NCBI RefSeq assembly: GCF_000787775.1
Contig: NZ_BBPM01000031.1
Coordinates: forward strand, 18,736-82,735
Origin: Streptacidiphilus carbonis
GTDB lineage: Bacteria > Actinomycetota > Actinomycetes > Streptomycetales > Streptomycetaceae
Direction: 5' to 3'
Length of the DNA stretch: 64,000 nucleotides
Below, in pieces: positions 23,731 through 60,749 of the stretch. The notes beneath the pieces are model-generated. The model did no database searches and was not told the origin of the DNA. It saw only the letters and a program-made list of their open reading frames with translations. The position numbers were made by a program, and so were the translations under genes. Positions within the stretch are counted from its first letter, which is position 1; every line of letters begins with the position of its first letter.

Positions 23731-24371
23731 TGGCCCTGCTCCTCCTTGGTCTCGGTCGCGGTGGTCTTGTCGACCTCCGCCTTCACCCACTTCGCCGCGG
23801 CGGCGACGGTCTTGAACGGCGCATCACCGCTGACCTTCGCGAACACCGGATACGGGTACGGGCGGGTGGTCGCGGACGGCTGCCAGGTCGGCAGGGCGCC
23901 CGCGCTCCAGGTCGTGGCGCCGCGCGCGCCCCGGCCCTCGCCGATGGAGCCGACGATGTCCTTCTCGGCCAATCGCTCGACCCGCTCCAGGGAGCACAGG
24001 TAGCCGCCGGGCCCCGCGTCGTGCCAGTCGAGCAGCGGCGGCCCCGGGTAGAGCCACAGCCCGCCCACCTTCTTGGGGACCTGCCCGTAGCCGGTGCTCG
24101 CCGTGGTGGTCGTCCGGGAGGTGCGCTCCTCCCCGCTGATCAGGTGCACCGTGCCACAGGACCGGCACAGCACCCGTACGGTGACCGTGTCGAAGCGGTC
24201 GCTGTGACCGCAGTCTTCGTTGGGGCACGCGTGCTCGGGTCCGCCCCGGCGGTCGCGCCACCGGTCGGCCTCGCTCTGCTGGTCGACCTCCCACACCGGC
24301 CGGGCGCAGTCCGCCCGGTGTCCGAAGGACCGCCATCCCAGGTGGGCGCTCAAGGCGTCGGAAACGGTCAC
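23727..24371 (-). CDS. Hypothetical 214-aa protein with zinc-ribbon-like Cys pairs
   Basis: Residues about 45-80 carry HACPNEDCGHSDRF and then VRVLCRSCGTVHLI, two cysteine pairs typical of a zinc ribbon. The C-terminus has a segment (DAPFKTVAAAAKWVKAEV) like a compact helical domain. The GTG start overlaps the preceding stop by 4 bp. Zinc ribbons of this kind bind nucleic acid or protein partners. The specific family is not recognised. Confidence 0.68.
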   Translation of the reverse strand: MTVSDALSAHLGWRSFGHRADCARPVWEVDQQSEADRWRDRRGGPEHACPNEDCGHSDRFDTVTVRVLCRSCGTVHLISGEERTSRTTTTASTGYGQVPKKVGGLWLYPGPPLLDWHDAGPGGYLCSLERVERLAEKDIVGSIGEGRGARGATTWSAGALPTWQPSATTRPYPYPVFAKVSGDAPFKTVAAAAKWVKAEVDKTTATETKEEQGQ

Positions 24372-25582: not shown

Positions 25583-25797
25583 GAGGTGGAGCCCTTCGGG
25601 GTCGGGGTGGCGCCGGTCGCCGGACGGGCGAGCCGGGTCAGGTGGTCGAAGTCGGCGGCGGTGAGCGGGCCGCCGTCCGGGCGGGTGTAGGACAGGACGA
25701 CGCGCGGGCCGGTCCGGACCGGGAACAGGGCAAGTTGCCTCGGGCTCACCGGAGTTGCCGCGCGCCGGGCGCGGTCGTCCTCGGTCGCGGCCGTCAC
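25573..25797 (-). CDS. Small hypothetical protein (74 aa)
   Basis: The GTG start overlaps the preceding stop by 4 bp and the frame ends inside the first codons of the next gene, so it is tightly embedded in the operon. The product starts acidic and contains a short strand segment (GPRVVLSYTRPDGGPL) followed by a helix (ADFDHLTRLARPA). No motif is recognised. Coupling on both sides is the main support for it being real. Confidence 0.6.
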   Translation of the reverse strand: MTAATEDDRARRAATPVSPRQLALFPVRTGPRVVLSYTRPDGGPLTAADFDHLTRLARPATGATPTPKGSTSCR

Positions 25798-26408
25798 CGG
25801 GCCTGCTCCGGGCCGGAGGGGACGACGGAGAGCTGCGGCGGCTGGTCCCCGACGGGAGCCCGCATGGCGGAGAGCAGGACCTTCGTCATCTCGTACTCGC
25901 TCGGCCAGCTGTGGTACTCGCTCGTCTTGGTGCCGGCCGCGAGCAGCTCCTTGATGAGCGGCTCGTCCTCGGTCACGCTCGGCCGCTCCGGGTAGGAGGT
26001 CACCTGCCACAGCTGCTCGACGTAGCTGAGCAGCGCGTAATACTCGTGGCTCTCGGACGGCACGTTGACGCTGAGGCGCGGGAGTTCCAGTCCCATGGCC
26101 CGGCGCCTGGCCACTTCGGCGGCGACGGCCGGGGCGAGGGTGCCCTCGCGGCGCGACGCGATGGCCCGCGCCGCCCACGCCCGCTCGGAGTAGGACCGCG
26201 AGCAGGCGATCTTGCGGTCGCGCATCTCGGTGTAGTGGTACCCGGCCAGCGCGGTGTCCAGGTGGGCGCGCATCTCCTCGACCAGCGGGCCGTCCGTCCA
26301 GTGCAGGTTCCACCGCGGCCCGTTCTCCCAGTTCAGCTCCAGCTCGGTCCCCCCGGTGACCTCGGTCAGGTGCCGCGCGAGCTGCCAGGCCTGCCTGCTG
26401 CGGCTCAC
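25794..26408 (-). CDS. Hypothetical 204-aa protein
   Basis: Helical and Trp/Tyr-rich (LELNWENGPRWNLHWTDGPLVEEMRAHL; DTALAGYHYTEMRDRKIACSRSYSERAWAARAIASRR), with a C-terminal half of alternating helices. The first of these regions has the look of a small beta-helix sensor domain. The GTG start overlaps the preceding stop. No catalytic residues, signal or membrane segment were identified. Confidence 0.65.
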   Translation of the reverse strand: MSRSRQAWQLARHLTEVTGGTELELNWENGPRWNLHWTDGPLVEEMRAHLDTALAGYHYTEMRDRKIACSRSYSERAWAARAIASRREGTLAPAVAAEVARRRAMGLELPRLSVNVPSESHEYYALLSYVEQLWQVTSYPERPSVTEDEPLIKELLAAGTKTSEYHSWPSEYEMTKVLLSAMRAPVGDQPPQLSVVPSGPEQAR

Positions 26409-27073
26409 CGCGAGGTCTCCGTGTCGGTGGCCGTGCTGGACGGGAAGGCGTCGGCGTGGCGGCGGATCAGGTCCCGGGCCGCGTCACCGTGCTCCGGGTC
26501 CTCGGCGAATGCGGCCAGCTGGTCGAAGTAGGCGGCCGGGCCGTGCTGGTCGGCCCGCAGCGGGAGGACCCGGGTGACGCCGATGAAGTAGGCGGCCTCG
26601 TCGGCGGTCTCCTGCGCCTCGATCCAGGCCCAGCCGACGTGCTCGGCGTCGGGGTCGGCCGGGCGGTACCCGAGCGCCTCCAGCGCCGCGTTCCGCTCGG
26701 TCACGGTCGGCACGGTGGTGCCGCGGTCGCTGAACGAGGTGGTGGGCCAGCCGCTGCCGGGCAAGCCGGGCAGGCGCACGTCCAATCGCCATCCGCCCTG
26801 CTTGGGCCGGAGTTCGGCCTCGAAGGTCTCCGGTTCGGCGTCCTTGCGGTGGGCGGCCAGGCCCTCCCCGTCCGGGCCCACGGTCCCCTCCATCAGGCTG
26901 CGGAGGTGCCCGGCCTCCCAGGAACCGGAGCGGTTGCGCAGCACCTCCTCGACCCCGCCCTCGGCGGCGGCGACGGTGCACAGGGCGTGCGCGAGGAACT
27001 CGGCGACGTCGACCCCGTCGTCCAGGGCCTCGGCGATGGCGGCGGCGGCCCGTCGGCTGTTCTGGTCGTCCAC
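26405..27073 (-). CDS. Hypothetical 222-aa protein
   Basis: The GTG start is preceded by GAGAGGA about 9 bases upstream, which is better than the longer open frame that begins 63 bases earlier. The N-terminal third is helical (SRRAAAAIAEALDDGVDVAEFLAHALCTVAAAEGG). The centre is strand-rich (EAELRPKQGGWRLDVRLPGL), and the end is helical and acidic. There is no recognised domain. It is second in the operon, 90 bp after the first gene. Confidence 0.65.
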   Translation of the reverse strand: MDDQNSRRAAAAIAEALDDGVDVAEFLAHALCTVAAAEGGVEEVLRNRSGSWEAGHLRSLMEGTVGPDGEGLAAHRKDAEPETFEAELRPKQGGWRLDVRLPGLPGSGWPTTSFSDRGTTVPTVTERNAALEALGYRPADPDAEHVGWAWIEAQETADEAAYFIGVTRVLPLRADQHGPAAYFDQLAAFAEDPEHGDAARDLIRRHADAFPSSTATDTETSR

Positions 27074-27163
27074 GGTGGTGGGTGTCCTCTCGTTGAACAG
27101 GTGGTGGTCGGGAACGGTGGCGCCGGGGGCGGACACCGCTGGGTGTCCGCCCCCGGGGCTGGG

Positions 27164-27484
27164 TCAGAAGTGCGGGCAGTGCACGTGGTGTCCCTGTGCC
27201 TGGAAGCAGTGCTGGCACGGGCCGTCGTTCAGGAACGTCAGGGTGGCGATCTCCGCCGGGCCGCGCAGCAGCGCGCCGTTGACGGTGCGTCCGGCCGGGG
27301 TGATGAGCGGGGCGTCGGTGTCGATGTGGACCACGTCCGGGGTGGAGGGGACGAGGACGGTGAGCGTGCCGTCGGCGTCCCGCGCGAAGTGCCCGCCGCG
27401 ACCGTGGACGATCGAGACGGTGCCGGTGAAGGTCTGGTCCTGGATCGTGCCGGAGACCCGGTCACCCTGCTGAACGATTCGCAC
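27164..27484 (-). CDS. Small protein with C-terminal Cys/His cluster, first gene of the recombinase operon
   Basis: The 106-residue product has an all-beta N-terminal part (GDRVSGTIQDQTFTGTVSIVHGR) like a small barrel, and ends in CQHCFQAQGHHVHCPHF, a cluster of three Cys and four His that probably binds zinc. GAGGAA lies about 10 bases before the GTG. As first gene it follows a palindromic operator in the divergent promoter region. A beta-barrel plus zinc tail suggests nucleic-acid or protein binding; nothing more specific can be supported. Confidence 0.65.
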   Translation of the reverse strand: MRIVQQGDRVSGTIQDQTFTGTVSIVHGRGGHFARDADGTLTVLVPSTPDVVHIDTDAPLITPAGRTVNGALLRGPAEIATLTFLNDGPCQHCFQAQGHHVHCPHF

Positions 27485-34663: not shown

Positions 34664-35233
34664 CTACTGCTCGTAGGCCCATGCGCGGCCGTTCTGGCGG
34701 TACTCGTCCACGGGCAGGGGCTCGACTCCGGGGCGCATGCGGGTCAGGTACAGCTGTCCTTCGAGGTGGTCGATCTCGTGGTGGATCAGGCGGGCCAGGC
34801 CGCGCTGGTAGGTGGTGGTGTGGGTGCTGCCGTTCAGGGCGGTGGTCTCGACGGTGATGGCCAGGGGGCGGGGGACCAGTCCGCGGACGTCGAAGAACGA
34901 CAGGCAGCCTTCGTACTGCTCGTCGCCCTCGGCGGAGCTGTCGGTGATGCGGGGGTTCAGCAGCACGATCGCCGGGGCTCCGGCGGTGGGCGGCTGGACG
35001 ATGGCGGCGGCGCGCGCGATGCCGATCTGGGGGGCGGCGATGCCCATGCCCTTGGCGAAGGTGTGGGCGCGGGCGATGTCCTCGATAGCGGCGAACAGGC
35101 GGTCAATGGACTGTTCAGCGGCGGCGGCCTCGGCCGGAAGGTCGAAGGTGCGCGCCGGGGTGGTGAGGATCGGGGCGCCGTGCTGGACGATCCCCAGGTC
35201 ACGCATGCGCTGGCTGGGCTGGGCCTGGGTCAC
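34664..35233 (-). CDS. def: Peptide deformylase
   Basis: All three deformylase motifs are intact in this 189-residue protein: GMGIAAPQ (residues 62-69), EGCLS with the metal-binding Cys (C110), and HEIDH (152-156) with two metal-binding His and the catalytic Glu. The enzyme removes the formyl group from nascent proteins. The GTG start follows CAGGAG closely and avoids a non-conserved extension. An additional deformylase on a mobile element may give resistance to deformylase inhibitors such as actinonin or may serve the neighbouring island; this is inferred. It is divergent from the Nudix gene, 124 bp away. Confidence 0.93.
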   Translation of the reverse strand: MTQAQPSQRMRDLGIVQHGAPILTTPARTFDLPAEAAAAEQSIDRLFAAIEDIARAHTFAKGMGIAAPQIGIARAAAIVQPPTAGAPAIVLLNPRITDSSAEGDEQYEGCLSFFDVRGLVPRPLAITVETTALNGSTHTTTYQRGLARLIHHEIDHLEGQLYLTRMRPGVEPLPVDEYRQNGRAWAYEQ

Positions 35234-35357
35234 CTGTGCTCCTGCTGGTCGATGTCGGCGTCCGGTCGGGCCCGGAAGCGCCATTCGAGACGGTAGCGGT
35301 CGTGCAGGGGCGCGATCGTGCGTCGGACGGTGCTCGGAGGGACTACTGTGGCTCGGC

Positions 35358-35879
35358 GTGACGAGCTTTCTGTGGCACCGCTCCTGGCCCGCTCCCGAGG
35401 TTCTGCCGGTACGTCAGGTTTACGCGTGGATCGTTGACGAGGACGCCCGGGTGCTGCTGCTGGAGATGCCCGGCGGCTGGAACCTGCCGGGCGGCACTCC
35501 GGAGGACTTCGACCGCGACTGGCAGGCGACGCTTGAGCGCGAGGTCATGGAGGAGGCCGACGTGACGGTGCGCGACGTCGTCCCGCTCGGCTACCAGGAA
35601 GTACGCCCCGCCACCGGTGAGCCGTTCGCGCAGCTGCGGGTCGCCGCCCGGGTGGACCAGTGGCTCCCGGCGACCCCGGACCCGGACAACGGCCAGGTCT
35701 ACCCACGGGTGTGGGTGCCGCTGGGCGAGGCCGCTGACCTGTTGGGCTGGGCTGAGCCGGGCCACGCCCAGGCGGCTGCCGCCGCCCAGGTCGCACTGAC
35801 CCTCTACGGCTTCGCCGCCGCGGCCCCGATCGCCCAGGGCGACAGGGCAGCCAGCACCCCGGTGATGCAACTCGTGTAG
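35358..35879 (+). CDS. Nudix hydrolase
   Basis: The 173-residue protein has a Nudix fold: the opening strand (VRQVYAWIVDEDARVLLLEMPGG), LPGG, and a Nudix box whose REVMEEADV end (R61-V69) is canonical, while the earlier Glu of the box appears replaced by Asp or Arg. Nudix enzymes cleave nucleoside diphosphates linked to other groups, including the dihydroneopterin triphosphate made by GTP cyclohydrolase I. That link is attractive here because folE lies in the same island, but substrate cannot be read from sequence. The 3' end overlaps the convergent glycosyltransferase gene by 76 bp. Confidence 0.78.
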   Translation: MTSFLWHRSWPAPEVLPVRQVYAWIVDEDARVLLLEMPGGWNLPGGTPEDFDRDWQATLEREVMEEADVTVRDVVPLGYQEVRPATGEPFAQLRVAARVDQWLPATPDPDNGQVYPRVWVPLGEAADLLGWAEPGHAQAAAAAQVALTLYGFAAAAPIAQGDRAASTPVMQLV

Positions 35880-37045
35880 TCGCGTCCGGCGACCAGCTGT
35901 TCCCCGGCCTCCCGCAGTCGCGCAACCTGGTCAGGGGGCGCGGCCAGTGCGCGGCCGATGGCCAGGGCCAGGGAGCGCGGGTCGCCCGGCGCGGCGCTGT
36001 AACCGGTGGCGTTGTCGATGACGGTCTCGGCCAGGCCGCCGGCGGTGGTGGCCACGACCGGTCCGGCTCCGGCGGCGAAGGCTTCGAGCGGGATGCGGCC
36101 CAGTGGTTCGCTGCGCGAGGGGACGACGACCGCCCGCAGCGCCGGGTGGTGGAGCAGTCCGGGCAGGCCGGGGTCGAAGCGGGTCCACAGCGTCGCCGAC
36201 AGGCCGAGCGCGTTCATGCGTTGGCGAAGGTGGTGCTGGTAGGCGGTGGTGGGGCCGTCAGTGACCGCGGCCAGCAGCAGGTGCGGCAGGCGTACGCCGG
36301 TTTCGGCGAGGTGACCGAGGGCGTCGAGGAGGTCTTCAAAACCCTTGTAGGGCTGGGCGCGGCCCATGCTGAGCAGGAATCCGCCCTCGGCCTGGTCGGG
36401 CAAGGGTGGGGCGGCGGTCAGCGGGACGCGGTCGATGGCGGTCAGGCCGCCGGGGACGTCGATGATCCGCTCGGGCGGGATGCCCTTGCCGGTCAGCAGG
36501 GTGCGCATGTGGGTGCTGATCGCGCCGAACGCGGCTCCCAGAGCCATCCAGCCGTCCAGTCCATGCTGTTCCCAGGCGGCGCGCGTCGGGTCTGCGTGGT
36601 GGTCGGCGCTGGAGCGCGGCAGATACAGCAGCCGCCATCCGGGCGGAGCGGCGAGCAGGCGGCCAAGTCCGGCGAAGGGCTGGTCGATGGCGATCAGCAG
36701 CCCTCGCGGGTGACGGCGCATCAGCGGGTTGATCACCTCGGCGGCGTGGCGGTCCAGGTGCTCGAAGGCGGTCAGGTCGCCGAAGCGCTGCTGTCCGGCG
36801 GTGCCGTTGTCCAGAGCGGTGACCTGGTGGGGCACGTCGGCGAGGAGGTCGAGCACGGCCCGGTGGGCGGTGGGCGCGTACTCGGGGCTGGTGGGGTGCA
36901 GGTCGACGGGCAGCAGGACCAGGCGGACCCCGGGGGCCAGGGTGTGGGCGGCGGCGGTGATCAGGGCCTGGTTGCTGCGGCCGGCTCCGGTCGCGGCGCT
37001 GAAGTAGCCGTCGTGCAGGGCGATGGCCACCACCGGGGCGTTCAC
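35804..37045 (-). CDS. Glycosyltransferase (GT-B, group 1 type)
   Basis: The 413-residue protein has the C-terminal nucleotide-sugar domain of group 1 glycosyltransferases: FLLSMGRAQPYKGFEDLLDAL and VVPSRSEPLGRIPLEAFAAGAGPVVATTAGGLAETV, with the E-x7-E pair. The N-terminal acceptor domain begins VVAIALHDGYFSAATGAGRSNQALI. No signal or membrane segment is seen, so the acceptor is probably cytoplasmic. The GTG overlaps the upstream kinase stop by 4 bp. It is the last gene of the folE operon, consistent with a final glycosylation step. Sugar donor and acceptor are unknown. Confidence 0.88.
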   Translation of the reverse strand: MNAPVVAIALHDGYFSAATGAGRSNQALITAAAHTLAPGVRLVLLPVDLHPTSPEYAPTAHRAVLDLLADVPHQVTALDNGTAGQQRFGDLTAFEHLDRHAAEVINPLMRRHPRGLLIAIDQPFAGLGRLLAAPPGWRLLYLPRSSADHHADPTRAAWEQHGLDGWMALGAAFGAISTHMRTLLTGKGIPPERIIDVPGGLTAIDRVPLTAAPPLPDQAEGGFLLSMGRAQPYKGFEDLLDALGHLAETGVRLPHLLLAAVTDGPTTAYQHHLRQRMNALGLSATLWTRFDPGLPGLLHHPALRAVVVPSRSEPLGRIPLEAFAAGAGPVVATTAGGLAETVIDNATGYSAAPGDPRSLALAIGRALAAPPDQVARLREAGEQLVAGRDYTSCITGVLAALSPWAIGAAAAKP

Positions 37046-37650
37046 CGCGCGCCCACCGCATCGACCGCGCCGGCCAGCTGGTCGGTCGACGCGGTGGCGT
37101 CCACCCGCTGCCGGGGGACGGCTGCGACCAGTTCGGCCAGCCCCGGATGCGCCGTGGCGAGGTGGGTGAGCGGATCGAGGTAGAAGGCGCGCAGCCGTTC
37201 CAGGACGGTGGGATCGGACCACGGGTGCCCGGGGTGGAGGCGTTCGGCCCGGCGCTGGAGGCTGAGGTGCGGCGGCAGGTCCAGGATGATCCACCGGTGC
37301 GGTGGTATCAGCCGTCCGGCGGCGAGGTGGCAATGAACCCAGTCGGCGCGCCGGGCCAGGCCGCCAGTGCTTGCCGCCCAGGCCAGGGCGGTGAGCCAGT
37401 CGCGGTCCACCCACACCGGCCCCGGGTGGCCGCGCAGATGGTCGGCCTTGCGCAGCCAGTTCGCCAGATGGCTGTCCTCGTCGTCGTGGTGCGGGTGCCG
37501 GTCGTGGTCAAGGAGGTCTCCGGCGGGGGTGGTGTACTCGGGCAGCACGGTGCGGCCGGCCCTGGCCAGGGCGGCGAGCACGGTGGTCTTGCCCGCGCCC
37601 GGCATCCCCTCGACCACGGTGACCGGTGCGGACGAGTCAGAAGAGTGCAT
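37042..37650 (-). CDS. P-loop kinase, thymidylate-kinase-like
   Basis: Walker A is GMPGAGKTT (residues 15-23). Later, VWVDRDWLTALAWAAST and WIILDLPPHLSLQRRAER give the DRD- and lid-like segments of dNMP and deoxynucleoside kinases. At 202 residues it is the usual size. Such enzymes phosphorylate nucleotides or small metabolites. Within an operon with folE and a PTPS homologue, a pterin or a sugar could be the acceptor, but the family does not decide this. The ATG overlaps the upstream DUF2797 gene by 14 bp. Confidence 0.72.
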   Translation of the reverse strand: MHSSDSSAPVTVVEGMPGAGKTTVLAALARAGRTVLPEYTTPAGDLLDHDRHPHHDDEDSHLANWLRKADHLRGHPGPVWVDRDWLTALAWAASTGGLARRADWVHCHLAAGRLIPPHRWIILDLPPHLSLQRRAERLHPGHPWSDPTVLERLRAFYLDPLTHLATAHPGLAELVAAVPRQRVDATASTDQLAGAVDAVGAR

Positions 37651-38548
37651 CCTGTTCCTCCTGGTGGCCGAGCGGTGCAAGGGATTCGAGCGCGGCGGTC
37701 GGCGCGGTGTCGGGTTCGGCGCGGCCCAGTGCCCATCCGGCCAGCAGCCGGGTGTCCAGCAGCACCAACCCCGAGACCGTGTCCAGATAGATGTCGGTGC
37801 CGATCCGGCAGGCGATCCGTCCGCTGATCACGTCCCCGGGGGCGAGCGGCAGCAGCGCTGCGTCCGGCCGCAGACCGTCGGCGGGCAGGTCGTAGGCGGC
37901 GGCGTGGTCCCTCACCTGCGGCTCGCGGCGGTCCTGGCCCTGTGGCCAGGCCAGTTCGCCAGCACGCTGCGCGGTGGCGAACAGGTCTGCGGCGCGTTCG
38001 GCGGCGGTGCCGGGCCGGGCACGGGCGAGGCGTTTGCGCGCCGCGCTCATCCGGTCGGGCAGCCCCAGGGCGGTGCCGAGTAGGCTCTCGGCCCGGCGGG
38101 CAGCGGTCAGGGTGCCGGTGGAGATGACGGTGGAGGCTAGCGCGCCCTGCTCCAGCAGTCGGGCGTCGCCGCGTTCGACCGCGGTGATGCCGACCTTGAC
38201 CGCGCAGCCGTGGTGGGCGAGGTAGACCGCGAAGGGGCGCGGGTCGTGCAGGCGGGTGTCGGCGGCGATGGAGTCGGCGCGGTCCGCCGCCTGGCAGGGC
38301 GGGCACTGGGCGGTGCGCACCGTCGGGACGACAGGCGCGGACATCGGGCAGTCGCGGCGGCTGCCCGAGCGCCACACCCCGATGCAGCGCCGGTCGGCCC
38401 CGGCGGTGAAGGCCAGGTCAGTGCCGGTGTTCAGCGGGCTCGTCCTGGAGGTACCGCCGCTGGGGGCCGACCATTCCAGCAGTGCGGTGCCCTGGTCCCA
38501 GATGAGCCCGGTAGCCCGCCATGCGGGCGGCGACCCCTCGCTGATCAC
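37637..38548 (-). CDS. DUF2797 family protein
   Basis: The 303-residue protein has the order of DUF2797 proteins: an N-terminal strand pair (GLIWDQGTALLEW), a Cys site (RRCIGVWRSG, RRDC and QCPPC), and then FAVYLAHHGCAVKVGITA, which resembles a GIY-YIG-like nuclease core (VYLA and VKVGIT). The function of DUF2797 is unknown. The GTG with GGGAG about 6 bases upstream keeps the conserved N-terminus but makes a 131-bp overlap with the preceding gene. Its presence in a biosynthesis-like operon is unusual. Confidence 0.75.
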   Translation of the reverse strand: MISEGSPPAWRATGLIWDQGTALLEWSAPSGGTSRTSPLNTGTDLAFTAGADRRCIGVWRSGSRRDCPMSAPVVPTVRTAQCPPCQAADRADSIAADTRLHDPRPFAVYLAHHGCAVKVGITAVERGDARLLEQGALASTVISTGTLTAARRAESLLGTALGLPDRMSAARKRLARARPGTAAERAADLFATAQRAGELAWPQGQDRREPQVRDHAAAYDLPADGLRPDAALLPLAPGDVISGRIACRIGTDIYLDTVSGLVLLDTRLLAGWALGRAEPDTAPTAALESLAPLGHQEEQDALF

Positions 38549-39278
38549 TGCTCTCCCATCGCCGGTAGACCTCTTCCAGTACGTGCCAGCCCGCCAGTTG
38601 CGCGATGTCGGCCAGGGCCTCGGCCGGGTTGTCGGGCATGTGCAGGTGGTTGACCAGCATCCCGGCCCCCAGGTCCGCGCGCACCGTCCGCTTGAGGACC
38701 GCGCCGGCCGCCACCGCGTCCGGTCCGCCAGCCAGCACCACGATCTGCACGCTACCGCTGGTGAGGTAGTCGGTGCGCTCGGCGACGAAGGAGGCGCCGT
38801 AGGCGTCGGGGTAGAGCCGGTCGCAGTCGGCGGCCGTCAACTGCCGCGTCGTCACGTGGACCTCGCGCAGCACGGACCGCAGCCGTGAGCGGATCGCCCG
38901 CATCGGGGCACCGGGCTTGAGCATGGCCAGCGTCAGCCGCTGCCCGGGTACCGGGAGTTGGGTGTCGGCCAGCGGCGCGCGCATCGCCTGGGCCCAGACC
39001 CGGTGGCAGTCGCAGTCCCGCTCGCCGTGGCCCGGGTGCTCCGGCACCGCCGCCGAAGCTGCGGCGGCGGCCCGCTCGGCGCACGGCAGGCATGCCCCGG
39101 CGCTGCCCGCGGCAGGCCGGACCAGGCCGCTGGAGCGCACCGCCGTCCACCACGCGTCCCAGGGATGCTCCAGCACGGCCGGGGCGGCGGACCGCCCCGC
39201 GCTGAGCTGGCCGTCCAGGGCCAGGCCGAGAACGGCGGCCAGGCGCCCACGGCCGATGCCGGGCACGGGGGCGGTCAC
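38418..39278 (-). CDS. Nucleoside diphosphate kinase-like protein with Cys-rich N-terminal domain
   Basis: The second half (about residues 115-235 of 286) follows the NDPK fold: LTLAMLKPGAP (compare IKPDGV), LYPDAYGASF, RTDYLTSGSVQIVVLAG and VNHLHMPDN, where the His in N-x-x-H fits the phospho-histidine but GSDS is replaced by MPDN. NDPKs transfer phosphate between nucleotides. The first 110 residues contain ACLPCAERAA and RDCDCHRVW, a possible metal site not found in ordinary NDPKs. The active site may have changed substrate. The GTG overlaps the upstream PTPS-like stop by 4 bp. Confidence 0.75.
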   Translation of the reverse strand: MTAPVPGIGRGRLAAVLGLALDGQLSAGRSAAPAVLEHPWDAWWTAVRSSGLVRPAAGSAGACLPCAERAAAAASAAVPEHPGHGERDCDCHRVWAQAMRAPLADTQLPVPGQRLTLAMLKPGAPMRAIRSRLRSVLREVHVTTRQLTAADCDRLYPDAYGASFVAERTDYLTSGSVQIVVLAGGPDAVAAGAVLKRTVRADLGAGMLVNHLHMPDNPAEALADIAQLAGWHVLEEVYRRWESSDQRGVAARMAGYRAHLGPGHRTAGMVGPQRRYLQDEPAEHRH

Positions 39279-39784
39279 CGCAGCACCGCCTCGGCGGTGG
39301 CGGAGCACTCGGCCGACTCCGTCAGCGTCAGCTCCAGCCGCTCGACGGCGGGGCAGGCGGCGCCCAGCCGACGGGCGAGCTCGGCGACGAGGTAGCAGGC
39401 CAGGGCCTCGGTGCTGGTGCCCGCTACCGGCAGCAGAGCCGTCCAGGAGCGAGGCAGGCTGAAGCACGCGCCGCCGCCGGTCACGCGCAGCTGATCGCCG
39501 CTGACCTCCTCGACCAGGACACCGGGGGTGTCCACCGCGATCAGAGTGCGGCGCTTCAGCGGCGCGATGACCTCGCGCAGCTGCTGCTTGAGGACCCGGA
39601 AGTCGGCGACCATCCCGGAAGAGTCCGGCAGCCCCCACGCGGCCAGCACGACCTGGTAGGTGTGCCCGTGCAGCGGCTCGAACACCCCTTCGTGCAGGCC
39701 GGTGTGGGCGGCGTTGAAGTCCCAGCCGGCCCCGCCGACCCGCGCCTGCACCAGTGGCCGGGCGCTGGCCTGGACCGCGGTCAC
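39275..39784 (-). CDS. 6-pyruvoyl-tetrahydropterin synthase homologue, PTPS-III signature
   Basis: Zinc ligands of the PTPS/QueD fold are present: H27 in FNAAH, and H39 and H41 in LHGH. In QueD the residue four before the first HGH His is a catalytic Cys; here the sequence is FEPLHGH, giving E36-x2-HGH and no nearby Cys. This E-x2-HGH form is described for PTPS-III, which converts dihydroneopterin triphosphate to 6-hydroxymethyl-dihydropterin in folate synthesis. STEALACYLVAELA supplies the conserved TxE segment. At 169 residues it is slightly long for the family. It is coupled to folE (4-bp overlap), which makes its substrate. Confidence 0.85.
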   Translation of the reverse strand: MTAVQASARPLVQARVGGAGWDFNAAHTGLHEGVFEPLHGHTYQVVLAAWGLPDSSGMVADFRVLKQQLREVIAPLKRRTLIAVDTPGVLVEEVSGDQLRVTGGGACFSLPRSWTALLPVAGTSTEALACYLVAELARRLGAACPAVERLELTLTESAECSATAEAVLR

Positions 39785-40371
39785 GGCGCGCTCACCGCGA
39801 GCGACATGAACTCCGCGCGGGCGGCGGGGTCGTCCAGCAGCACGCCGCGCAGGGAGGAGGTGGTAGTGCGCGAGCCGGTCGCCCCGACCCCGCGCAGGGT
39901 CATGCAGGTGTGCTCGGCGCTCAGCAGCACCGCCACCCCGGCCGGGTCCAGGTGCTCGACCATCCAGTCCGCGATCTGCCCGGTCAGCCGCTCCTGGACC
40001 TGAAGGCGCCGCGCGCAGTGGTGCACCACCCGGGCGACCTTGCTCAGCCCCAAGATGCGCTTGCGCGGCACGTAGCCGATGTGGGCGACGCCGGTGAACG
40101 GCAGGACGTGGTGCTCGCACACGGACACGAAGCGGATGTCGCGCACCAGGACCAGCTGGCCGGGTTCGGCGGTGGTCTCGAAGTCGGTGGCGGTGAAGGT
40201 CGGCGGGGTGGTCATCTCCTTCAGCGCCCGCACCATCCGGCCCGGGGTCGCGGCCAGCTCCGGGCCGGTCAGATCCAGGCCCAGGGCGGCCAGCAGCCGG
40301 GCGGCGTGGTCGGCGGCCTCGTCCATGGGGACGGGCGTGGTGGGCAGGGATGTCATGGTCGGCACGCTCAC
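39781..40371 (-). CDS. folE: GTP cyclohydrolase I
   Basis: The 196-residue protein has the zinc ligands C85, H88 (VCEHHVLPFTG) and C156 (AEHTCMTLRGV), and the conserved GLSKVAR. It opens GTP to give 7,8-dihydroneopterin triphosphate, the entry to pterin, folate and 7-deazapurine pathways. The GTG follows GGAG by about 6 bases. As first gene of the operon running to the glycosyltransferase, it sets the pathway entry. It is divergent from the XRE regulator gene, with tandem repeats in the shared promoter region. No QueE or QueC homologue is seen in the window, arguing against a 7-deazapurine product. Confidence 0.94.
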   Translation of the reverse strand: MSVPTMTSLPTTPVPMDEAADHAARLLAALGLDLTGPELAATPGRMVRALKEMTTPPTFTATDFETTAEPGQLVLVRDIRFVSVCEHHVLPFTGVAHIGYVPRKRILGLSKVARVVHHCARRLQVQERLTGQIADWMVEHLDPAGVAVLLSAEHTCMTLRGVGATGSRTTTSSLRGVLLDDPAARAEFMSLAVSAP

Positions 40372-40527
40372 GTGGACTCCTGACAGGCACGGCCCCAGCC
40401 AGCGGGGGCCACGGGATTCGCGGGCGGGAATCGCCCTAGCCGCAGCCGCCCGGAGCGGGGGAGCTGTTGCCCCGGGTGGCTGCGGGTTCCAGTGCACCGC
40501 CTACCGGGCCCGGGTGGGGTCGGCCTG

Positions 40528-40551
40528 ACCGGACGTTTCACCGGACGTTTC
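40528..40551. repeat. Two perfect tandem 12-bp repeats in the divergent folE/XRE promoter region
   Basis: ACCGGACGTTTC occurs twice head to tail without a gap. It lies 157 bp before folE and 66 bp before the XRE gene. Tandem sites one helical turn apart are typical binding sites for a dimeric regulator, most simply the XRE protein. Confidence 0.65.
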
Positions 40552-40616
40552 CGATGACGGGGCGGGCGGGCAGTGGCATGGTGGGCTGACCGCACGTCAC
40601 AGAACGGGGAGTCGCC

Positions 40617-41870
40617 GTGGCGAGGAGCAACCTGGCGCGCTTACGCAGGGCGTCCGGGCACACCCAGGAGTCGTTCCTGGTCGACTTCGCCCAGTGGGCA
40701 CAGCTGATCAGGGCGAATGCCGCCGTCAGCGTGCGTCAGTTGCGGCGCTGGGAGGGCGAGGACCCGCCGCTGCCCCACCCCGGGCAGCAGGACGTCCTGG
40801 AGGCGATGTTCGGCATCCCGCTGGCGGAGATGGGCTTCACCGTGCCCGAACACCGGTGCCACCCCGTGGCCCGGCTGCGGCACGATGGACCGGTGCGCAG
40901 ACGGGAGTTCATCGCGGACCTCGGCGGCCTGGCCGCCGCCGCGGCGCTGCCCGCCCCCGGGCCCAGGACCGGCATGGACCAGGTGCGCGGCCTGCGCGGC
41001 CGGATCGACGGGCTGTACCGGCTCGACCACGCCAGCGGCGGCCTGACCGCCCGCCAGCAGGCGCATGAGCTGCTGGAGCAGATCGGCGGACGGCTGACCG
41101 GGAGCCTGTGCACGGAGCGGGTCGCGGTGCAGCTGCACGCCATGCTCGGGGAGATCCACTGCCATCTCGGGTGGCTGTGCCACGACGCCGGCCGCGACTC
41201 GGAGGCCCGCTCCTCGGTGCTGGAGGCACTCGCGGCGGCACGGATGACCGGCGACGCCCAGCTGGAGATGCGGGCCCTGTCCACCCTGTCGCTGCTGGCC
41301 GTCGACCGGCACCTGCCCTGGGAGGCAGCCTCAGCCGTCGGTGCGGCTCAGGGTCTAGCCAGCCGTCACGCCGGGCCCGGGGTGCGGCTGGTGCTGTCGC
41401 TGCGCGAGGCGCGCGCGGCCCTGGCCGCGGGCGACCTCACCGGCTCGCGTCGCGCGCTGAGCGGGTCGATCGCCCTGCACGACCGTGCCGACCAGGAGCC
41501 CGACGCCCCACGCTGGGTCCGCTTCGCGGGCCCCGTCGAGATCGACTACGCCACCGGCACCCACTACCTGCAAGCCGGGGCGCCGAAAGCCGCGGTCCCG
41601 TTCCTGCGCGCCGCCGTCGACGGCCTGGCCGCCGGATACGCACGCAACACCGCCCTGTACCGCGCCCGGCTCGCCTCCGTGCTCCTACAGGCTGGGGAGG
41701 TAGAAGAGGCGTGCGCCCAGATGGCCACCGTTGTCGCCAAATCCGACGCGCTCACCTCCGCCCGCCTCTCCGCCCGCCTGGCAAACTTCCGTCAGGCAGC
41801 CGCCAGCATCGACACCGCGACCGCCCGCGATACGGTCGCCCTGCTGGAGTCGACCGCGGAGGCGGGATGA
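40617..41870 (+). CDS. XRE-like regulator with TPR-type C-terminal domain
   Basis: Residues about 5-75 form an HTH domain (LARLRRASGHTQESFLVDFAQWAQLIRANAAVSVRQLRRWEG). This is the opening shared by Streptomyces regulators whose remaining 300 residues are helical TPR-like repeats (for example ARMTGDAQLEMRALSTLSLLA and AVPFLRAAVDGLAAGYARNTALYRARLASVLLQAGEVEEA). Such proteins bind a signal or peptide through the repeats. An Ala-rich hydrophobic patch near residue 95 might look like a signal peptide but is internal. It is divergent from folE and coupled to the GNAT gene by an ATGA overlap. Confidence 0.8.
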   Translation: MARSNLARLRRASGHTQESFLVDFAQWAQLIRANAAVSVRQLRRWEGEDPPLPHPGQQDVLEAMFGIPLAEMGFTVPEHRCHPVARLRHDGPVRRREFIADLGGLAAAAALPAPGPRTGMDQVRGLRGRIDGLYRLDHASGGLTARQQAHELLEQIGGRLTGSLCTERVAVQLHAMLGEIHCHLGWLCHDAGRDSEARSSVLEALAAARMTGDAQLEMRALSTLSLLAVDRHLPWEAASAVGAAQGLASRHAGPGVRLVLSLREARAALAAGDLTGSRRALSGSIALHDRADQEPDAPRWVRFAGPVEIDYATGTHYLQAGAPKAAVPFLRAAVDGLAAGYARNTALYRARLASVLLQAGEVEEACAQMATVVAKSDALTSARLSARLANFRQAAASIDTATARDTVALLESTAEAG

Positions 41871-42427
41871 GGATCGAACGCTACGACGGCCCCGAAGCCG
41901 CCTGGGTCGAGGACGAGCTGCGGACGGTCTACCGCGAGGCGTTCTCCGAACCCCCCTACGACAAGACCAGCGAGGACGTCGAGGCGAACTTTCGGCGCTT
42001 CCGCTCCCAGACCAAGAAGGCCGGCTTCCGCGCGGTGCTGGCCCGCACCGACGACGGCGAGCCCGCAGCCATGGCCTACGGCTACCCGCTGCCCGCCTCC
42101 ACCGGCTGGTGGGACACCCTGACCGTGCCCGTCCCCGCCGAGGTCAGCCGCGAGGACGGACGCCGCACCTTCGGCCTGTTCGAGCTCGCCGTCCACCCCA
42201 CCTGGCGCCGCCGGCACCTCGCCACCGCAGTGCACCACGAACTTCTGGACGGCATCGCCCAAGAGCGTGTCCTGCTCAACACCCGCCCCGAAGCCGAAGC
42301 AGCCAGCCGCGCCTACCGCTCGTGGGGATACGAGAAGGTCGGCGAGAACCACCCCTGGACCGGAGCCGCACTGCACGACGTCCTGGTCCTGGACCTGCCC
42401 GGGTGGGACCAGACAGCACTGGCGTGA
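41867..42427 (+). CDS. GNAT-family N-acetyltransferase
   Basis: The 186-residue protein shows the GNAT order: N-terminal strands and helices with an acceptor region (VYREAFSEPPYDKTSEDVEANFRRF), the acetyl-CoA signature FELAVHPTWRRRHLATAVHHELL with R-x-x-H-x-x (a variant of Q/R-x-x-G-x-G/A) and the closing AASRAYRSWGYEKVGE. These enzymes acetylate amines of small molecules or proteins. Coupling to the XRE gene next to the folE island suggests it modifies or detoxifies a related compound, but this is inferred. Confidence 0.82.
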   Translation: MRIERYDGPEAAWVEDELRTVYREAFSEPPYDKTSEDVEANFRRFRSQTKKAGFRAVLARTDDGEPAAMAYGYPLPASTGWWDTLTVPVPAEVSREDGRRTFGLFELAVHPTWRRRHLATAVHHELLDGIAQERVLLNTRPEAEAASRAYRSWGYEKVGENHPWTGAALHDVLVLDLPGWDQTALA

Positions 42428-42577
42428 CCGGCAGCGGCTGGTCACCGAGTCCGACCGCCTCGTCCTACCCCGCCGGAAGCGGACAAGAGACGGGAACTGC
42501 GGAGACCACCTGCGTAGGGCCCTCGCAGTGATACATAGGACAGGTCACCCGTGGGCGACCCCGCGGCCGCCCCGGCG

Positions 42578-42676
42578 TCACCCCTCCCCCGAGGGTGCCG
42601 CCGGGGCTCCCCGCCCGCTGTGACGAGCATTGGTCTGCTTGTCAGTGGAATGCCGCAGATACAGACGGTCCGTCAC
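42578..42676 (-). pseudogene. Truncated serine recombinase N-terminus
   Basis: From a GTG preceded by GGGGAAG, the frame reads TDRLYLRHSTDKQTNAR, the first 17 residues of resolvase/invertase recombinases (pattern Y-x-R-x-S-T-x-x-Q, with the catalytic Ser in RHST). Similarity then stops and a stop codon follows after about 14 unrelated residues. An intact enzyme has at least 180 residues, so this is a remnant left by a deletion or rearrangement. The match is short, so chance cannot be excluded. Confidence 0.5.
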
Positions 42677-48066: not shown

Positions 48067-48666
48067 TCAGTCCTCGGCCTGGCTCCAGGCGCTGGGTACC
48101 AGGCTGGGCATGCGGTGGTCGATCTGGTGCTCGCCCTTGGTGCAGCCGCTGAACGGGCCCGTGGACCCGCGCAGCTCCCGCAGGGCGGGGTCCAAGTGGT
48201 CGCGGTGCCAGGTGCTGGGGCCGGTGTAGCCGCAGGACGCAGGGTCCGTCAGTTCCTGCCAGGCCAGCCACAGCGCGTGCAGACGGGCGATGGCCACCAT
48301 GTGCTCCCACCACAGGTGGCACCATCGGGCATCGGCTGACGGCTCGGCGAGGTAGCCGGGGACCAGCACCCCCTCCACCCACTCGATCAGGGCCCGCAGC
48401 TCGTCGTCGTACTCCGGGGGGTCGAGCAGCAGGATGAACGGCGGGTACTGCCCCTCTTCTTCCGCCTCCTCCTCGGCGGCTTCCCCGCCGGCCGTCTCCT
48501 CCTCCTCGGCGGAGGCCTCGCCCGGCTCCTCTTCCCGCTCGCTGGTGAGCGCTCCGAGCTGGGCGGTCAGGCGTGCGACTGCGGCTTTGAGGTCCTCGAC
48601 GTCCTGGAACATCGTGATGGGGACGTCCATCTGCGGGCCGTCCCCACTGCCGGGGTCAGCTGCCAT
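48067..48666 (-). CDS. DUF4913 protein of the transfer region
   Basis: The 199-residue protein has a coiled-coil start (FQDVEDLKAAVARLTAQLGALTSERE), an acidic Glu/Ala linker and then the DUF4913 core (ARWCHLWWEHMVAIARLHALWLAWQEL and TWHRDHLDPALRELRGSTGPFSGC). DUF4913 is repeatedly found next to TraD-like genes in actinobacterial conjugative elements, as here. It overlaps the coupling-protein gene by 11 bp. Function unknown, but an accessory of the coupling protein is likely. Confidence 0.82.
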   Translation of the reverse strand: MAADPGSGDGPQMDVPITMFQDVEDLKAAVARLTAQLGALTSEREEEPGEASAEEEETAGGEAAEEEAEEEGQYPPFILLLDPPEYDDELRALIEWVEGVLVPGYLAEPSADARWCHLWWEHMVAIARLHALWLAWQELTDPASCGYTGPSTWHRDHLDPALRELRGSTGPFSGCTKGEHQIDHRMPSLVPSAWSQAED

Positions 48667-50395
48667 TGCGGGTGACCTTCCGCAGCTCGTAGGCGCCCAC
48701 GGCCCGCTTGGTGATGGCGGCTTCCTCGTCGCGCATCTGCGGTCCGATGTGCGCCATCGTCTTCTCCCCGTACCAGGGGCGCAGGCTGATCTGCGCGACC
48801 GGCATGCCGGTGGCCATCAGCAGCGCCGTCCCCTTCTTCATCGCCCGGATCTCGGCGGGGTCGAGCACCTGCTCGCGCTGCTCGGACCAGCTGCGGCTAT
48901 CGCCGCCCTTGCTCTTGGAGTACGAGCCGCGCTGGACGTAGTGCGCGCCCGTCAGGGTGCTGATGTCCCCGGCGAACTTGGCATCGTCAATCCCGACGCC
49001 GATGATCTTCTTGGTGGCCGCGCTCCACATGGAGTCCATGCCGACCTCGCCCCAGGCGCGCACGCCCTGACGGTAGGACTGGAGGATGACGAACGGGGTG
49101 ATGCCGCGGCTGCCCAGGTGTGAGTACAGGTCGGGGAGGTCCGCGATCTTGCAAATGTTGGCGGCCTCGTCCAGGACGGCGCGCATCGGTTCGGACAGGC
49201 GGCCGCCCATGCGTTCGCCCGCCTCGGTGCCGGCGGTGAACACCGCGTCGGCAATGGCGGCAACCAGCGCCGAGGACGGGCCGCCCTTCTTGCTCAGCAG
49301 GTACAGCGTGTCCTTGCTCGTGGCGAAGGCCTCGGGGTCGAAGCGGGGCCGGTGCTTGTCCGGCAGGACCCACGCCAGGGTCTTCTCGTCGCGCAGCGCG
49401 CTCATGGCGGTACGGGCGTTCTGGAAAATGCCCGACTGCGTCTCCTCCGCGATGTTGACAGAGGAGTCGACCTGCTCGGCGAGGACGGGTTCGTGCTGGT
49501 ACAGGACGCGCAGCGGCGCTTTCTCCTTCGGGTCGGCCAGCCACCGCATGACCTCGCGCACGGTGGCGCCCTCCCACCAGGCGGCCCGGAACAGGCCGGT
49601 GAGGAGGTCTCCGGCGGCCTGGCTCCAGAACGGGTCGGCCGACTCGGAGGTGGTCTGGTTGACGAAGTGGCTGGCCAGCCGTTCGGCCCCCTCCAGCGTC
49701 TCCGCCTGGGCGATCAGGTCGACCCACACCCCCCGCTCGGCCTGGGCGACGCCCTGGGTGTCGAACAGGAAGGTCTCCCCCGCCTTGGACCGGGTTCCGA
49801 GCGTGGCGGCGTAGACGTCGGCCTTGTTGCTGGTCATCAGCAGGGGGCCGGGCGCTTCCTCCGCCACGGGGATCGCAAGGGCGGTCGACTTGCCCGCGCG
49901 GGGCGCCATGATGGCGATGTAAGTGTCCTCGTCCGATCCGCGCAGCTCGACGCCGGTCGGCATGTGGTTGCCCAGGATCACGCCCCGGTCCCGGGCGGCG
50001 ATCTCCTTGGGCTTCGTCTCCTTCAGCGAGGCCCGCAGGCGGGTGGCGGTGCGGGCCGCGTGCTTGGGCGTCAGCTCCCGCACCTGGAACAGGGTGGCCA
50101 GGCTGCTGGGGTTGCGGAACCAGCGGACCCCAAGGCGCACGCCCCACACGATGAGCACGACGACGGCCAGGTCCGCCACGGTGGCGCCCACCGCAGAAGC
50201 GGTCTGCGAGTGCGGCCACACCGTCGACCACCCGGTGGCCATGTGGAAGGCGGTCAGGGGCGAGGCCGGGGCCACCGGTTCTCCGGTCACCAGTGCGCCG
50301 CCTGCCGCACCGGCCCAGGTCGAGGCGGTCAGTGTCACCGCGGCTCCGAACAGGACACCTCCGCCCGCCCAGGCGCGGTCGTTGTCGGTCATCAT
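48656..50395 (-). CDS. Type IV coupling protein (TraD/VirD4-like)
   Basis: Two N-terminal membrane segments (about residues 10-36 and 70-92) precede a cytoplasmic ATPase with Walker A APRAGKST (164-171) and Walker B AVLDEA (about 406-411). Middle motifs include FDPEAFATSKDTLYLLSKKGG and ITPFVILQSYRQG. These proteins hand the relaxase-DNA complex to the secretion channel. At 579 residues it is the usual size. It is the last of the long T4SS transcript before the DUF4913 gene; the TGATG overlap couples it to the VirB4-like gene. Confidence 0.9.
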   Translation of the reverse strand: MMTDNDRAWAGGGVLFGAAVTLTASTWAGAAGGALVTGEPVAPASPLTAFHMATGWSTVWPHSQTASAVGATVADLAVVVLIVWGVRLGVRWFRNPSSLATLFQVRELTPKHAARTATRLRASLKETKPKEIAARDRGVILGNHMPTGVELRGSDEDTYIAIMAPRAGKSTALAIPVAEEAPGPLLMTSNKADVYAATLGTRSKAGETFLFDTQGVAQAERGVWVDLIAQAETLEGAERLASHFVNQTTSESADPFWSQAAGDLLTGLFRAAWWEGATVREVMRWLADPKEKAPLRVLYQHEPVLAEQVDSSVNIAEETQSGIFQNARTAMSALRDEKTLAWVLPDKHRPRFDPEAFATSKDTLYLLSKKGGPSSALVAAIADAVFTAGTEAGERMGGRLSEPMRAVLDEAANICKIADLPDLYSHLGSRGITPFVILQSYRQGVRAWGEVGMDSMWSAATKKIIGVGIDDAKFAGDISTLTGAHYVQRGSYSKSKGGDSRSWSEQREQVLDPAEIRAMKKGTALLMATGMPVAQISLRPWYGEKTMAHIGPQMRDEEAAITKRAVGAYELRKVTRNGS

Positions 50396-58982: not shown

Positions 58983-60749
58983 TTACCGGGCCCGCCTGGG
59001 GCCCTTGCGCTGCTCTTCGCCCGGCCGACGTGTCACTCCGGGTGCTGCCGTCTTGCGCGGCGTACCGGTGCGACCGGTGCCGCCCGCGGACGTCGGCGAC
59101 GGGTTCTTGACGGGGGCGGCCACAGACGCATCGCGCTGCCGCTGCCACCCGTACAGCCTCCATGTAAGCACCTCGGCGACCGAGTCCGCTGAGTCCAACT
59201 CCCGGATGGAGGCGACTGCCGCGAGGATCTCGGCCGGGTCCTCCCCCGTCTTCTCGATGTCCGCCAACCGTGTGCGCAGTGCGGGCCACGCCGAGTCCGC
59301 GAGCACGGCAGGGGCATGCCCGGGAACAGCCTCCTGGAGCACGCCCGCCATCAGCCGCTCGCCCGCGACCGACGGCGCCGCACGGCCTCCGGCTGGCCGG
59401 GCTTGGGCGCGCTTCGGGCGGGGCCGGTACGTACGTGCCGCGCTCGCGCCGGCGGTCACCTCGACGGCTTCACGCAGCAGTCGACCGGCCCGGCCAGCAG
59501 CCTCCGCCTGGGCGCGGTGCTCCTGCGCCTGGTGCCAGCGGCGGGCAGCCTCGATCGCGGTCACCAAGGCCAGCAGGAAGCCCAGTGCGGCGACCGTGTC
59601 ACTGCGTCCGGCTGCGGCCGACGATTGGGACAGCAGCTGTGACGACTCCCGGTACAGGGCACGTGCCTGACCCTCCAGCGCACGGTCCCCCGGGGCGCGC
59701 GAGGCGCGCTCGAACTCGTACGCCGTGTCCTTCATCTGACCGCGCACCATGCGCGGCGAGATCACTGCCGCGATGACAATGAGGTCGCCCAGCGCCGCGA
59801 CGTCTCCGGCCCCCTGATGCAATCCGCCCGCGCCCAGAAGGTCGGCGGCCGCGCGCACCCGCTGCTCGGCCTCGCGCCACATCTCCGCCGGCGCAATCGT
59901 GGGCACGGACACCGGGATCGCCCAGCGCTCCCGCACGCGCGGAAGGGACAGGTCCGCGGCGAGCCGGGCGCCAGGAAACCACACCGGAGTCTGTCCGGTG
60001 TCACGGTCGCCGGGCATGGCCACCGAGTACCCGGTGATGTTGCCGTCCGGTGCCACGCGCTGCTTCACCCGCACACCGGCGGCGGTCAGCCTGGCGAAGA
60101 AGTCATCGTCGCTCACGGCGGCGGCCGCGGCCTCGCGCACCGTCCGCTGGAGCGTCTCGCGCACTGGCTCCGGCAGACCGCGCCGGGCCGCTTTCTCCTG
60201 CTCTCCTGTCTTCGGCCACTTCTTCGCCGTCTTGTCGCCGTGGGTCAGTCGCCGCAGTCCGAACTCGACCTCGAACTTCCGCGCGGCCGCGTGCATCTTG
60301 GGGATGTCCTGCCGCAGCCGCGGCTGCCGACCGTCCTGCCGGGCCTGCGTCGCGACGATGTGGATGTGGTCGTCAGCATGCCGGATCGCCACCCATCGGC
60401 AGGCCTGATCGTCTCCGTGCTCGGCGATGCCGGAGGCGTGCATCATCTCGCGGGCGACCCGCGCCCATTCTTCGTCCGTCAAGAGGCGGTCCTCGGGCGC
60501 GTTGCGTACCGCCACGTGGTACACGTGCTTGGCCGGGCGCTTGCCCAGCAGAGCGTGAACCGGGGCGTCCATGATGAGCGCCAGGTCGGCAATCGTCATG
60601 TCCGCCGACCGCGCCGGGTCATCGACGTACGGGTCATCCCACGACGCCACCATGTGCGGGTCGGTGTGCTCGTCACGCTTGCCCGGACCGTACAGGTAGT
60701 CCAGCAGTCCCCAGGTGTCGTCACCCTCCCTGGCCTTCTTCGGCATCAC
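58983..60749 (-). CDS. Relaxase (MobA/VirD2-like)
   Basis: The 588-residue protein has the relaxase metal site HADDHIH (H124, H128, H130) and the N-terminal LLDYLYGPGK segment, in which Tyr (Y18 or Y20) should be the DNA-linking nucleophile. YHVAVRNAPEDRLLTDEEW is the conserved region between. It nicks oriT and pilots the strand into the recipient. The C-terminal 250 residues include hydrophobic helices (VAALGDLIVIAAVISPR and VAALGFLLALVTAIEAA) and one W-P-x-L repeat as in the following gene. It is coupled to mobC by a GTGA overlap. Confidence 0.92.
   Translation of the reverse strand: MMPKKAREGDDTWGLLDYLYGPGKRDEHTDPHMVASWDDPYVDDPARSADMTIADLALIMDAPVHALLGKRPAKHVYHVAVRNAPEDRLLTDEEWARVAREMMHASGIAEHGDDQACRWVAIRHADDHIHIVATQARQDGRQPRLRQDIPKMHAAARKFEVEFGLRRLTHGDKTAKKWPKTGEQEKAARRGLPEPVRETLQRTVREAAAAAVSDDDFFARLTAAGVRVKQRVAPDGNITGYSVAMPGDRDTGQTPVWFPGARLAADLSLPRVRERWAIPVSVPTIAPAEMWREAEQRVRAAADLLGAGGLHQGAGDVAALGDLIVIAAVISPRMVRGQMKDTAYEFERASRAPGDRALEGQARALYRESSQLLSQSSAAAGRSDTVAALGFLLALVTAIEAARRWHQAQEHRAQAEAAGRAGRLLREAVEVTAGASAARTYRPRPKRAQARPAGGRAAPSVAGERLMAGVLQEAVPGHAPAVLADSAWPALRTRLADIEKTGEDPAEILAAVASIRELDSADSVAEVLTWRLYGWQRQRDASVAAPVKNPSPTSAGGTGRTGTPRKTAAPGVTRRPGEEQRKGPRRAR

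Follow-up and report, generated by a model that had tools for sequence, protein, structure and literature searches.

The window analyzed here is a 64,000-nucleotide stretch of Streptacidiphilus carbonis (contig NZ_BBPM01000031.1, positions 18,736 to 82,735), which is part of an 86.7-kb contig in a genome of 8.46 Mb. It carries a cassette of six overlapping minus-strand genes encoding GTP cyclohydrolase I (FolE), a homolog of 6-pyruvoyltetrahydropterin synthase (PTPS), a protein similar to nucleoside diphosphate kinase (NDPK-like), a DUF2797 protein, a P-loop kinase, and a glycosyltransferase (GT), together with a convergent Nudix gene. We consider that the cassette probably spreads by horizontal transfer and encodes a self-contained pathway, one dedicated to a tailored pterin outside folate metabolism that is most likely made from 6-hydroxymethyl-7,8-dihydropterin (HMDP), and we assign this reading a probability of roughly 55%. 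Gene content, gene order, selection, block transfer, and active-site residues were read directly from the sequence.

Conservation of the gene cassette

The genes, strands, and overlap sizes agree, by Pfam matches and coordinates, with those given in an earlier sequence-only reading of the window. The overlaps are 4 bp between folE and the PTPS gene, 4 bp between the PTPS and NDPK-like genes, 131 bp between the NDPK-like and DUF2797 genes, 14 bp between the DUF2797 and kinase genes, and 4 bp between the kinase and GT genes. The GT and Nudix genes overlap convergently by 76 bp. The 131-bp overlap is not an artifact of start-site assignment, because the N-terminus of DUF2797 is kept among the homologs (W-R-x-T-G in most) and an overlap of 86–131 bp recurs in every intact homolog. 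The earlier description did not include a divergent NsdA-family regulator and a GNAT gene, which overlap by 4 bp and also lie inside the conserved 7.3-kb block described below. HTH or TPR-type regulators are located beside other copies of the cassette too.

A survey of gene neighborhoods for the same six genes, suggested as a check by the sequence-only reading, found the set with its order kept in eight other actinobacterial genomes. The same gene order is present in Streptacidiphilus jeojiense (locus L035), whose cassette is the closest to that of the window and lies in the same genus. It is also present in Antribacter gilvus (L036), Promicromonospora umidemergens (L037), a second genus of the window's family (L043), and representatives of two further families (L072, L073, L085, L086, L087, and L089). 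With the window, these are the 11 cassette loci considered below; L088 is a remnant. The L073 cassette lacks folE, and the NDPK-like frame of L089 is interrupted. Nine genomes, including that of the window, hold all six core genes in one order, and they belong to at least three actinobacterial families. PCMT-like methyltransferases near L087 and L089 were considered as cassette members and rejected, as they lie outside the conserved set.

The dN/dS values for seven cassette genes are 0.14–0.40 between the window and L035, and all seven are, judging from these ratios, under purifying selection. Because the gene order is shared with other families and the dN/dS values are low, the association of the genes is not due to chance. 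The divergences of the cassette proteins also correlate between genes across the loci (Spearman 0.44–0.89). The cassette, whose hosts are soil actinobacteria, is rare. There are three clear cases among 395 sampled members of the window's family; it was present in 3 of 395 in the class-wide sample, the window included, and in 6 of 299 in the family of G608, the remnant included. It was not found outside the class in the phylum-wide sample.

Active site of the PTPS homolog

The best PDB matches of the cassette PTPS are the Plasmodium PTPS-III enzymes (1.5e-13). Glu36 aligns with the catalytic Glu of these enzymes, at the position that is Ala or Cys in PDB 3m0n and 3lze, and the alignment thus places it in the active site, as the sequence-only reading had supposed, and not elsewhere. 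This Glu is required for HMDP formation by the Plasmodium enzyme, and its change abolishes the reaction (PMC2229834). ExxHGH is the published signature of PTPS-III (PMC5041015); in Plasmodium and some bacteria, PTPS-III takes the place of FolB (PMC5041015, PMC2229834). The E36-x2-HGH motif without the QueD Cys had been described correctly: E[PA]LHGH is invariant and the Cys is missing in all 11 cassette PTPS. The Zn-ligand His and the C-terminal Glu are retained. Among 24 background PTPS, taken as the relatives' homologs with an HGH motif (HGA-type homologs were examined separately), every one has the Cys and none has Glu at that place.

The Asp-His pair belongs to the catalytic triad of mammalian PTPS. 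This dyad is found in 23 of the 24 background proteins and is kept in the Plasmodium enzyme, whereas none of the 11 cassette PTPS possesses it. Its two positions are occupied by K/R/N/H/Q and R/N/C/L, followed by an invariant Arg-Thr-Leu (RTL). The proposed PTPS-III identity consequently stands for the Glu-type ExxHGH motif but not as a plain PTPS-III. On the basis of these residues, we regard the cassette PTPS as a new subfamily, PTPS-III-like in its Glu and not a standard PTPS-III.

A further PTPS homolog with CxxxHGH, which is without the Asp-His pair, was observed in a cassette-bearing genome (L028; G030:C1:6352507-6352848).

FolE, FolB, and probable phosphate removal

The CEHH and HxCM motifs, which provide Zn ligands and catalysis, are invariant in 10 cassette FolE proteins. 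The FolE of the window scores 172 bits against TIGR00063, slightly under the cut-off of 181.6. FolB is the usual HMDP-forming enzyme. It is absent from the window cassette; in L072, L085, and L086, folB is the first gene and adjoins folE. The L072 protein matches the Pfam family at 7.4e-30, and those of L085 and L086 are 71% and 66% identical to it, respectively. The presence of two HMDP-type enzymes, FolB and PTPS, in one operon points to HMDP. Because FolB is inside three homologous operons, the PTPS is not simply a replacement for FolB.

The Nudix gene is present in 8 of the 11 cassette loci, and its REx2EE core is conserved; it was not found in L036, L037, or L086. L037 has instead a HAD phosphatase gene that overlaps folE by 4 bp. 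Phosphate removal is thus probably a part of the pathway.

The host encodes a FolB of its own on another contig and has two further FolE proteins; therefore, its folate synthesis does not depend on the cassette. The second FolE of the host, a stand-alone one (L090:7473-8126), groups with the cassette FolE proteins in the tree, with no such operon around it.

Putative tailoring genes

The model of the GT has a GT-B fold with a moderate mean pLDDT of 68. It is most similar to LmbT (Z 28.6 over 384 residues), and the next match is sucrose-phosphate synthase (SPS, 25.8). The E-P-[LF]-G-R-I-P-L-E segment, corresponding to the E-x7-E region, is conserved in three aligned sequences. LmbT couples a GDP-sugar to ergothioneine (PMC12945683); therefore, a small-heterocycle acceptor is plausible for the GT. 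The Synechococcus pterin glucosyltransferase (BGluT) is only at rank 38 in the Foldseek search, behind LmbT, SPS, and MshA, and its sequence matches that of the GT with an E-value of 0.0025. The parallel that the sequence-only reading drew with the enzyme set of cyanobacteria is accordingly weak, as LmbT ranks as a closer match of the GT than the tetrahydrobiopterin glucosyltransferase does.

The G[ML]PGAGKTT and DR[DN]W motifs of the kinase are conserved. In the NDPK-like protein, the NxxH active-site motif is intact, and the aligned part is about 12 residues shorter than NDPKs. DUF2797 has four conserved Cys residues and a GIY-YIG-like motif, K-x-G-[IL]-T ... R ... E. Its profile weakly matches T5orf172 (24 columns, 53% probability, P 1.4e-4; control profiles, 0.02 or worse). 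The structure model of DUF2797 (pLDDT 44.5) is too poor for a fold search.

Gene layout and mobility

The coordinates of the cassette and its neighbors are listed in Table 1. The homology between the window and L035 forms a single block that extends from the Nudix gene through the GNAT gene, and no similarity was detected outside it in the stretches compared. Because this sharp block lies in unrelated surroundings in the two Streptacidiphilus genomes, the cassette moves as a unit. A peptide deformylase gene (34664-35233) is located on the element just beyond the block edge and was excluded from the cassette.

Table 1. Coordinates of the cassette, its flanking genes, and the conjugation-related genes in the window
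Feature	Position	Strand	Evidence
Conserved transferable block (cassette, regulator, GNAT)	35313..42613	.	90% nucleotide identity over 7,317 bp with S. jeojiense L035
Nudix hydrolase, convergent with GT	35358..35879	+	Pfam NUDIX 7e-11 to 5.8e-10
GT4-type glycosyltransferase	35804..37045	-	Pfam Glycos_transf_1 4.8e-20; best fold match LmbT, Z 28.6
P-loop small-molecule kinase (AAA_28; weakly thymidylate-kinase/dNK-like)	37042..37650	-	Pfam AAA_28 1.4e-8 to 1.6e-8, Thymidylate_kin 0.002
DUF2797 protein, putative zinc ribbon and GIY-YIG-like motif	37637..38548	-	Pfam DUF2797 3.6e-16
NDPK-like protein, extra N-terminal Cys/His-containing region	38418..39278	-	Pfam NDK 5e-5; profile-NDPK matches 1e-7 to 1e-5
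PTPS-family protein, ExxHGH (Glu36)	39275..39784	-	Pfam PTPS 1.6e-13; best PDB match P. vivax PTPS 1.5e-13
FolE, GTP cyclohydrolase I, first gene of the operon	39781..40371	-	Pfam 2.7e-58; CEHH and HxCM motifs
NsdA-family TPR-like regulator, divergent	40617..41870	+	NCBIfam NF053720 1.6e-71
GNAT acetyltransferase	41867..42427	+	Pfam match on enclosing open reading frame; common only to the window and L035
TraG/TraD-type coupling protein	48656..50395	-	Pfam TraG-D_C 1.6e-29
MobA/VirD2-type relaxase	58983..60746	-	Pfam Relaxase 6e-8

Both a relaxase and a coupling protein are encoded near the window cassette. Across 272 residues, the relaxase shares 49% identity with a protein whose gene neighbors the L043 cassette; this protein came from the combined L035/L043 protein set and was placed in L043 by similarity. 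The L037 flanks contain a TrwC relaxase and a ParB-like gene. For L037 and L043, a relaxase without a coupling protein was recorded. The L086 cassette is surrounded by catabolic genes. The description of the cassette as element-borne is thus borne out for the window, L037, and L043 but not for L086, so a carrying element is not apparent for all copies. Searches of the plasmid collection with the PTPS, NDPK, and kinase proteins gave no match, and the GT gave a single weak match there (30%, Embleya). No GT match was found in the phage collection, and no match to the PTPS profile in the viral contigs.

Other genes of the element were also observed. An open reading frame of 4,008 residues (1756-13782) gave only a marginal ResIII helicase match, and a C-5 cytosine methylase-like gene (62016-63677; Pfam 2.7e-9) is located near the relaxase gene. 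The minus-strand genes at 21147-27484 form a tightly packed run; three were scanned individually, and none has a Pfam match.

Proposed pathway and alternative explanations

FolE, given its intact active site, would convert GTP to 7,8-dihydroneopterin triphosphate (DHNTP). For the later reactions, the donor and acceptor of the GT, and the product, we infer the following scheme. The Glu-type PTPS homolog would cleave the side chain of DHNTP to yield HMDP, which FolB may also make in some relatives, and the Nudix enzyme or the HAD phosphatase would strip phosphates. Phosphorylation or rephosphorylation of the pterin or a pterin glycoside may fall to the P-loop kinase and the NDPK-like protein, and the GT4 enzyme would attach a sugar, so that the pterin would end up glycosylated, phosphorylated, or both. 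DUF2797 is a constant partner in the cassette, and the divergent NsdA-type regulator probably controls expression. Tentatively, the product may belong to an undescribed class of glycosylated, phosphorylated pterins, the PTPS may represent a new subfamily using Glu and zinc without Asp-His, and DUF2797 may participate in the chemistry or in the use of the product.

Several observations weigh against this scheme. Where FolB accompanies PTPS, one of the two would be superfluous if HMDP were their only product, and a PTPS without the Asp-His dyad may catalyze a different reaction or have lost its activity. The nearest fold relative of the GT glycosylates ergothioneine, and a pterin acceptor is our inference. 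The NDPK-like protein scores 25 bits, under the Pfam NDK cut-off of 27. DUF2797 has no evident place in the scheme, and its GIY-YIG-like motif may hint at nucleic acid. The first two of these observations agree with a less probable alternative, in which the PTPS-like protein performs a different, new reaction, for example, on dihydroneopterin, on dihydroneopterin monophosphate, or on HMDP supplied by FolB, and forms another C6 side chain that is then phosphorylated and glycosylated. The invariant RTL in place of the dyad fits this idea, as does the suggestion that archaeal PTPS-III may act on a monophosphate (PMC5041015). However, the ExxHGH Glu, on which HMDP formation by the Plasmodium enzyme depends, and the Zn ligands are invariant in the cassette proteins. 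It is improbable that nucleic acid or nucleotides are the target of the cassette, in conflict or hypermodification, with DUF2797 as a GIY-YIG-like zinc-ribbon protein, a pterin- or GTP-derived nucleotide made by the kinase and the NDPK-like protein, and the GT as a modifying enzyme. The weak match of DUF2797 to T5orf172 with its conserved R and E, the nucleotide-kinase-like genes, and the conjugative-element context are in its favor, but the T5orf172 match is short and of modest probability, and the conserved set is without a polymerase or a base-modifying enzyme. Moreover, the cassette gave no convincing PADLOC match (the kinase weakly matches an unnamed candidate, PDC-M51B, at 8e-6), and the relatives' flanks gave only mad2, probably the methyltransferases of L087 and L089.

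Two established pathways share enzymes with the cassette. FolE, FolB, and PTPS-III are folate-pathway enzymes, and extra copies could raise folate or bypass antifolates. We regard this as quite unlikely because FolB and two further FolE proteins are already encoded by the host, neither FolK nor FolP was seen in the scanned cassette flanks, and the GT, DUF2797, and NDPK-like genes have no place in folate synthesis. The 7-deazapurine (preQ0) pathway, with the PTPS acting as QueD, an enzyme of the same family that FolE often accompanies (PMC5041015), is hardly credible. None of the 11 proteins has the Cys at the QueD position, and the window PTPS scores 33.6 against the TIGR03367 QueD model, for which the cut-off is 89. 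QueC and QueE were not recognized in the scanned flanks of any homolog among the families listed (the best 25 of 30 and the best 25 of 44 in two lists), which agrees with the earlier statement that neither is present, and the sole QueC match in the whole genome is a weak one of 69 residues inside a long open reading frame. The tailored-pterin pathway is the preferred account. The sequence-only interpretation is retained in its conserved pterin operon, its Glu-type PTPS, and its exclusion of 7-deazapurine enzymes, but not in its plain PTPS-III or its cyanobacterial parallel.

Significance and comparison with known systems

Beyond folate and molybdopterin, bacteria have few pterins, and these are little understood (PMC13259868). 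A conserved cassette on mobile elements offers a defined gene set for seeking a new glyco- or phosphopterin and a naturally occurring case for testing which residues of PTPS determine the reaction. It also links the uncharacterized DUF2797 family to a pathway. No report of a FolE-PTPS-NDPK-DUF2797-kinase-GT cluster or its product was found in searches of open-access papers, which cannot exclude one.

The cassette PTPS resembles PTPS-III (COG0720; Plasmodium PTPS, PDB 1Y13 and 2A0S) in the Glu that replaces Cys in ExxHGH, the Zn-ligand His, and the C-terminal Glu, but it differs in the loss of the dyad, the FolB alongside it in three operons, and the non-folate context. The GT shares its fold, an actinobacterial origin, and perhaps a small-heterocycle acceptor with LmbT, the lincomycin S-glycosyltransferase (PDB 8IXP and 8ILA). 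However, the identity is about 20%, and no lincosamide sugar genes or link to ergothioneine were seen.

A chromosomal cluster in the window's family, Streptomycetaceae (L101:5360-11837, G021), encodes a Zn-dehydrogenase-like protein, an HGA-type PTPS homolog, a GT4 enzyme (4-bp overlap), a methyltransferase, an LPG_synthase_TM protein, a creatininase, and GTP cyclohydrolase II. Like the cassette, it combines a PTPS gene overlapping a GT4 gene with a linked GTP cyclohydrolase. It differs in the type of cyclohydrolase, in a PTPS without HGH or ExxHGH, in GTs without tblastn similarity, and in its other partners. Similar PTPS homologs occur in L019 and L021-L027; the cluster neighborhood is from one genome only, and the literature search found no paper on a cluster of this type.

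The nearest known kinds are the pepteridine cluster of Photorhabdus (PMC5384830) and the pterin glycosides of cyanobacteria (PMC13259868). The former, located on a genomic island, devotes GTP cyclohydrolase I, PTPS, and tailoring enzymes to a pterin, as the cassette is proposed to do; its tailoring is NRPS-like and pyruvate-dehydrogenase-like, it has a pteridine reductase, and GT, NDPK-like, and DUF2797 proteins are not described there (PMC5384830). The cyanobacterial system, with its UDP-glucose:tetrahydrobiopterin glucosyltransferase (PDB 5ZES), shares FolE, a PTPS homolog, and a GT4-fold GT with the cassette, which differs in a GT fold nearer to LmbT, in having no recognized sepiapterin reductase, and in its additional kinases and DUF2797.

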